From Deltaproteobacteria bacterium (GTDB lineage: Bacteria > Desulfobacterota > GWC2-55-46): DNA of 64,000 nucleotides. The notes beneath the pieces were generated by a model that saw only the letters and a program-made list of their open reading frames with translations, ran no database searches and had not been told where the DNA came from. The DNA lies in assembly GCA_016234935.1 (NCBI GenBank), contig JACRNL010000003.1:1-64000 (forward strand), written 5' to 3'. The position numbers and the translations under genes were made by a program. Below are positions 1 through 1,086 of this stretch, piece after piece; the stretch's first letter is position 1; each line of letters begins with the position of its first letter.

Positions 1-1086
1 AACAGTGCTTTAAATGTGAGCAGTATATGACTCAACGGGGTCGCTCCCCGCGCGGGAGCGTGGATTGAAACTGTAAAAATCAATGGCACGTGGCGGCGCC
101 CGGCGCGTCGCTCCCCGCGCGGGAGCGTGGATTGAAACGAAAGACCAGCTGACGAATACGCCTTAAGGGAGTAGTCGCTCCCCGCGCGGGAGCGTGGATT
201 GAAACGAGTGCCACAGCGAAAGCTGCTGGTGCTAATAGGTCGCTCCCCGCGCGGGAGCGTGGATTGAAACTGTCTGACGCCGGACACGGCGAGCGCCCTG
301 ACGGGTCGCTCCCCGCGCGGGAGCGTGGATTGAAACTATTAGCACCAGCAGTTTTCGTTGTGGCACTCTGGTCGCTCCCCGCGCGGGAGCGTGGATTGAA
401 ACACAGCACCGACGGAAGCGTTGTACGACGTAGACGGTCGCTCCCCGCGCGGGAGCGTGAATTGAAACTAGCAAGTTATAAAATGAGTGTTCCATTGCGT
501 GGTCGCTCCCCGCGCGGGAGCGTGGATTGAAACGCGATTGTACTAAGAATGTGATTCTCGGAGACGCGTCGCTCCTAAGGCAGAGATTGTCGCTCCCCGC
601 GCGGGAGCGTGGATTGAAACCACCTCATGGACCCTGCGCCGGTCAGTCTCCAGCGTCGCTCCCCGCGCGGGAGCGTGGATTGAAACAATGCCTTAAACGT
701 GAGCAGTATGTGACTCAACGGGGTCGCTCCCCGCGCGGGAGCGTGGATTGAAACCCCTGCTACGCGCCGTGGTGAGTTTCAACTGCGGTCGCTCCCCGCG
801 CGGGAGCGTGGATTGAAACACTATGATGTGGAAATCCGTCTGGACTCGGAGCTGTCGCTCCCCGCGCGGGAGCGTGGATTGAAACGGGTTGCTAATTGAC
901 GTTGTTGCGCAACGGCCTATAGTCGCTCCCCGCGCGGGAGCGTGGATTGAAACTGGCGCTATCATGGGTATGTTTCAAGACACGTACTGTCGCTCCCCGC
1001 GCGGGAGCGTGGATTGAAACTTTTTGCGCGGTACAGCGGCATCAGCTCGATTCTGGTCGCTCCCCGCGCGGGAGCGTGGATTGAAC
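1..1086 (+). CRISPR. CRISPR array, type I-C-like repeat GTCGCTCCCCGCGCGGGAGCGTGGATTGAAAC (32 bp); 16 repeats in window plus one truncated repeat; continues upstream of base 1
   Basis: Repeat starts read directly at 40,107,174,239,305,371,437(variant),502,589,655,723,788,854,922,989,1056(degenerate). Spacers 33-36 nt except one 55-nt composite. The repeat matches the known type I-C consensus style. Degenerate last repeat (TTGAAC) marks the leader-distal end, so leader and cas genes should lie left of the window. Confidence 0.98.

Follow-up and report, generated by a model that had tools for sequence, protein, structure and literature searches.

The type I-C CRISPR array at the start of the window, the 64,000-nucleotide stretch of a Deltaproteobacteria bacterium genome analysed here, contains two spacers, 4 and 6, that are nearly reverse complements of each other, and spacer 4 is probably a flipped integration of the PAM-bearing protospacer common to both. 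Spacer 4 reads GAGTGCCACAGCGAAAGCTGCTGGTGCTAATAG. The reverse complement of spacer 6 is made up of CA followed by 32 nucleotides, and spacer 4 of the same 32 nucleotides, identical at 30 positions, followed by G. The near-identity was noticed in a first-pass annotation, whose coordinates and sequences are exact; its alignment score is 26, compared with a best of 10 for any pair when the spacers of the array were shuffled 300 times. That annotation took the two spacers to have been sampled on opposite strands, which is not the best reading: the CA flank and the one-base register of the two ends favour a flip, and opposite-strand capture with a non-standard PAM appears the less likely origin of spacer 4.

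A type I-C array at the contig edge

The window starts at base 1 of its contig (C12), in a genome of 2.15 Mb distributed over 15 contigs, and the contig begins inside the array, the leader side of which lies to the left, off the contig. The repeat, GTCGCTCCCCGCGCGGGAGCGTGGATTGAAAC, is identical in 14 of the 16 copies; the copy at 437-468 carries a single change and that at 1056-1087 is a degenerate terminal repeat. It is a 32-nt palindromic element of the form GTCGC...GTGGATTGAAAC, combined with spacers of 33-36 nt, and at up to three mismatches it occurs in its own assembly in this array only. Neither cas1, cas8c nor cas5c was found in that assembly, so that the leader and cas genes are either missing or located past the end of the contig. 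A sister genome within the family (G021) carries an identical repeat, with cas5c-cas8c-cas7c-cas4-cas1-cas2 located 5' of its array (L016), and for this reason we assign the window array, from its sequence, to type I-C; what is present is the old end of an array cut off by the contig edge; cas3 was not identified among the proteins tested at the G021 locus. The sister array begins at the cas2 side and finishes with a degenerate repeat, and the corresponding degenerate repeat in the window thus places the older spacers on the right and the newer ones on the left.

Spacer 9 (534-588) is 55 nt long and contains the first eight bases of the repeat (GTCGCTCC, 568-575) followed by 13 nt; it is, as we read it, a unit collapsed by deletion. 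The open reading frame at 1024-1779, whose start lies within the terminal spacer/repeat, shows a partial match to DrmB (NF038324, E 9e-17, below the cut-off; phrog_29393), and is probably the remnant of a DISARM-type gene adjoining the array. Further along, positions 2856-3923 encode a two-part IS3-type transposase with HTH_Tnp_1 and rve domains and a broken middle, next to a Fic-domain gene (1701-2753).

Table 1. Features of the array and solitary repeat copies. Positions are those of the window unless a contig or locus is given.
Feature	Position	Strand	Description
CRISPR array, type I-C-like	4..1087	+	16 repeats, 14 identical; spacers 33-36 nt; repeat as in sister array L016
Spacer 1	4..39	+	36 nt; newer member of pair 1/11; 32/36, same orientation and register as spacer 11
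Spacer 4	206..238	+	33 nt; probable flipped spacer; ends in G (238), complementary to the PAM C at the protospacer of spacer 6
Repeat after spacer 4	239..270	+	intact, as is the preceding repeat (174-205)
Spacer 5	271..304	+	unrelated; acquired after spacer 6 and before spacer 4
Spacer 6	337..370	+	34 nt; older, canonical partner; -1 flank C (read from spacer 4), as in a TTC PAM
Spacer 11	687..722	+	36 nt; older member of pair 1/11
Solitary repeats, own genome	G000:C7:391198-391229 (L262); G000:C4:66881-66912 (L292)	-	
Solitary repeats, relatives	L012:1314, L017:288, L018:4468, L020:5161, L010:1501, L011:1501, L263-L270, L293-L298		

Register and flanks of spacers 4 and 6

The relation between the two spacers, their register, their order in the array and the flanks that each reveals of the other are read directly from the DNA. 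Reverse-complemented, spacer 4 extends past spacer 6 by exactly one base on the 5' (PAM) side, and the extra base is C, as in TTC; in array orientation, the 3' end of spacer 4 lies at the PAM edge, overshooting the 5' end of spacer 6 by a single G, the complement of the PAM C. On its 5' side spacer 4 is flanked by CA, a reading taken from spacer 6 and hence from the other variant. The first-pass annotation had already seen that the C beside spacer 6 fits a TTC PAM and that the CA beside spacer 4 is unlike it; we agree on both, and a flip would account for the missing PAM.

How unusual such a flank would be was judged from other arrays. The survey comprised 52 arrays (1,948 spacers) of the phylum and near relatives and 43 arrays (1,003 spacers) found via Cas1, in total 95 type I-C arrays and 2,951 spacers, and spacers were compared within each array. 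Overlapping spacers in one array show each other's flanks, and 12 flanks of at least three bases were readable in this way in other I-C arrays: C is at -1 in 10, NTC is present in eight and A is at -1 in none, so that CA would be an unusual flank. This flank and the register of the ends are what flipped integration of a single PAM-bearing protospacer predicts. A C donated by the PAM to the end of the repeat, as has been suggested for I-C (PMC8482600), would change the expected signature of a flip; it is not supported, as each of the 2,897 readable repeats ends in C even though two of the 12 flanks are without C at -1.

Of the direct pairs in the same survey, 28 were identical, 40 were non-identical with a common 5' register and 10 were shifted by 1-2 bases, and there were 10 partial direct overlaps and eight inverted pairs; three direct and two inverted pairs arose in the shuffled-spacer control (three rounds, first 52 arrays). 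Three of the inverted pairs are near-complete; the other five overlap only in part, at a variety of offsets, so that one or two near-complete pairs are expected even without a flip, and the register taken alone is only moderate evidence for one. Flips are, moreover, rare. In favour of a flip are also the presence of cas4 in the sister operon and the resampling, in normal orientation, of another site by the same array (spacers 1 and 11, see below). A second candidate flip is present in another array (L098), where spacer 45 starts with TTC and continues with the reverse complement of spacer 88 (29/31), such that the reversed spacer 88 sits directly after TTC.

The probable course of events is as follows. 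Spacer 6 would have been acquired first, in normal orientation, from a protospacer with a TTC PAM, followed by spacer 5 and then by spacer 4. For the latter, a later variant invader with two synonymous differences would have been sampled at the same PAM, the excised fragment being shifted by one base and keeping the C of the PAM, and Cas1-Cas2 (with Cas4) would have inserted it the wrong way round. The resulting crRNA would seek a target beside a non-PAM flank, and spacer 4 is probably a poor guide for interference. We infer in this way the invaders, the TTC PAM of this strain, the flip, the one-base shift and the poor function of spacer 4.

The two differences between the spacers fall outside the seed, at positions 16 and 22 of spacer 6 when counted from its PAM end, which makes it plausible that spacer 4 was taken from the variant by priming or interference-driven acquisition. 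They had been put down to third-codon changes, and they do fit: both are synonymous in two open frames, each of a 10-residue peptide. As an argument this is weak on its own, since two transitions placed at random in the 32-mer would pass as synonymous in at least one open frame in 36% of cases.

The protospacer search proposed in the first-pass annotation was run and gave nothing in IMG/VR, INPHARED, PLSDB, GTDB contigs and about 450 genomes. In IMG/VR, degenerate peptide patterns (both pairs, both possible frames) and exact spacer cores returned no protospacer; matches of the shortest cores (29 and 2) agree over the full spacer length in no more than 24/34 and 25/36 bases and are due to chance. 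One peptide pattern for pair 4/6 found nothing in the GTDB genome contigs. Searched with all spacers, INPHARED gave one 24-nt match (E=3) and no protospacer, and PLSDB gave none. In 396 genomes of the phylum (pair 4/6, at most three mismatches) and in 59 relatives (pair 1/11) only the array itself was recovered, and the spacers of the window match none of those in the other surveyed arrays. Since the protospacer was found in no collection, the flip is one that we infer.

Alternative origins and pairing of the crRNAs

The chief alternative, to which we give a distinctly smaller chance, is that both spacers are ordinary acquisitions, each with a TTC PAM, taken from opposite strands of either related invaders or two inverted copies of a sequence in one invader, the variant sampled by spacer 4 differing at the flank. 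Such captures do occur: spacers 63 and 71 of another array (L109) overlap on opposite strands with TTC at both sides and served as a positive control, and primed I-C acquisition uses both strands (PMC5071653). In one 10-residue frame the required flank changes (AGA to CGA; a third-position C to T) can moreover be synonymous. However, two extra changes are needed precisely at the flank bases, yet only two of 32 positions differ inside, and two opposite-strand PAMs must by coincidence lie one spacer length apart. It is improbable, though not to be neglected, that spacer 4 came from the opposite strand without a proper PAM, as an untrimmed or PAM-independent prespacer; the two flanks lacking C at -1 in other I-C arrays speak for such events, but such an origin does not account for the far end of spacer 4 lying no more than one base from the PAM edge of spacer 6. 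The ranking of these two readings and of flipped integration, which we prefer to both, expresses our judgement and is not a computed posterior.

The first-pass annotation also proposed that the two crRNAs could pair with each other, which holds as a physical possibility only. At the RNA level the two mismatches are G-U pairs, and all 32 positions can pair by computation, with a predicted duplex energy of -61.6 kcal/mol compared with -33.2 kcal/mol for the next best pairing in the array; the duplex is also included in the predicted fold of a three-unit precursor. It is nevertheless very doubtful that the newer spacer 4 RNA acts as an antisense that silences, tunes or alters the processing of the older spacer 6 crRNA. 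The arrangement is not conserved, crRNAs are normally held inside Cascade, and the near-complete inverted pairs, three in 2,951 spacers, have the appearance of a rare by-product. The capacity to pair is a property of any inverted pair, with no sign of function.

Equally hard to credit is a spacer inverted by recombination between repeat stems, or an assembly artefact, despite the near-perfect palindrome of the repeat stem and the location at a contig end: stem-to-stem inversion would put GTTTCAATCCA after the inverted spacer and is excluded by the repeats on both sides of spacer 4, which are intact and in normal orientation, while the differences in length and at two bases mean that neither spacer is a misassembled copy of the other.

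Repeated sampling, solitary repeats and significance

The array holds a second resampled pair, spacers 1 and 11, missed by the first-pass annotation, which is direct and not inverted. Its four differences are all transitions; one open frame keeps an 11-residue peptide unchanged, with the fourth change in the following YT- codon, a leucine if the PAM is TTC. Random transitions equal this synonymy in 3% of trials, so that of the two pairs only this one is informative on coding targets. Taken together, the two pairs agree with repeated sampling of coding regions in related invaders. The earlier claim of a double sampling of one site in two related invaders has good support from these pairs and from the roughly 40 non-identical same-register pairs of the surveyed I-C arrays. 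The array of a relative (L019, G006:C46) likewise has a resampled pair in the same register, its spacers 1 and 6 (33/34). A spacing of mismatches at every sixth position, as at 6, 12 and 24 in pair 1/11, did not hold up, as only four of 56 in the pooled pairs are at multiples of six.

Solitary copies of the I-C repeat (hairpin plus GCGTGGATTGAAAC) are found outside arrays in at least eight genomes of the family; most lie in sense orientation, about 50 nt or less 5' of a start codon. Judging from translations, the genes behind them include rpmC, rpsK, adk, uppS, rpoZ, gapA, secD, gcvT, rpmG, murI and cbiD, among others. The copy at rpsK in G010 is sporadic, being absent from the orthologous site in all eight relatives with a readable site, and cas5c was not found in the assemblies of most carriers. 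The nearest known elements are the Racrs (PMC10651486), solitary repeats that are phage-borne, whereas those described here precede host genes.

Flipped ('oppositely oriented') spacers were reportedly described in CRISPR adaptation by Shmakov and colleagues in 2014. In type I-F, flips make up less than 0.5% of spacers and are accompanied by slips of at least one base, the PAM complement being then at the other end; flips in I-E are cited as well (PMC5059440). Spacer 4 would share with these the seemingly random PAM, the PAM complement at the other spacer end and the slip that goes with the flip, and differs in that the array is a natural type I-C array and the probable flip was recognised from a second spacer of the same array and not from a known target. 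In type I-C of Legionella, overlapping or re-acquired spacers are directed against one mobile-element site (PMC5071653); there too, two spacers fall on overlapping sequence, an older imperfect match and then a newer spacer, but the target is known, whereas our pair is known from the spacers alone and has one member inverted. Prespacers in I-C are processed by Cas4-Cas1-Cas2, and Cas4 is proposed to set the PAM end and the orientation (PMC6519985). In the sister operon, cas4-cas1-cas2 are likewise arranged as in I-C; were spacer 4 flipped, this orientation step would have failed, in a strain whose own cas genes are absent from the assembly.

The case is largely ordinary and its biology otherwise expected. 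It adds modestly, from parts already known, a probable flipped spacer in a natural type I-C array, seen without a known target, and cautions that a near-complementary spacer pair alone does not prove sampling of both strands. Flips and PAMs can be read without the invader, as the 12 PAM flanks and two candidate flips obtained from 95 I-C arrays indicate. If the antisense role were true, inverted re-acquisition would have a regulatory effect on CRISPR immunity, as a brake. The solitary repeat-like hairpins before housekeeping genes of the family may merit more attention than the spacer pair itself.
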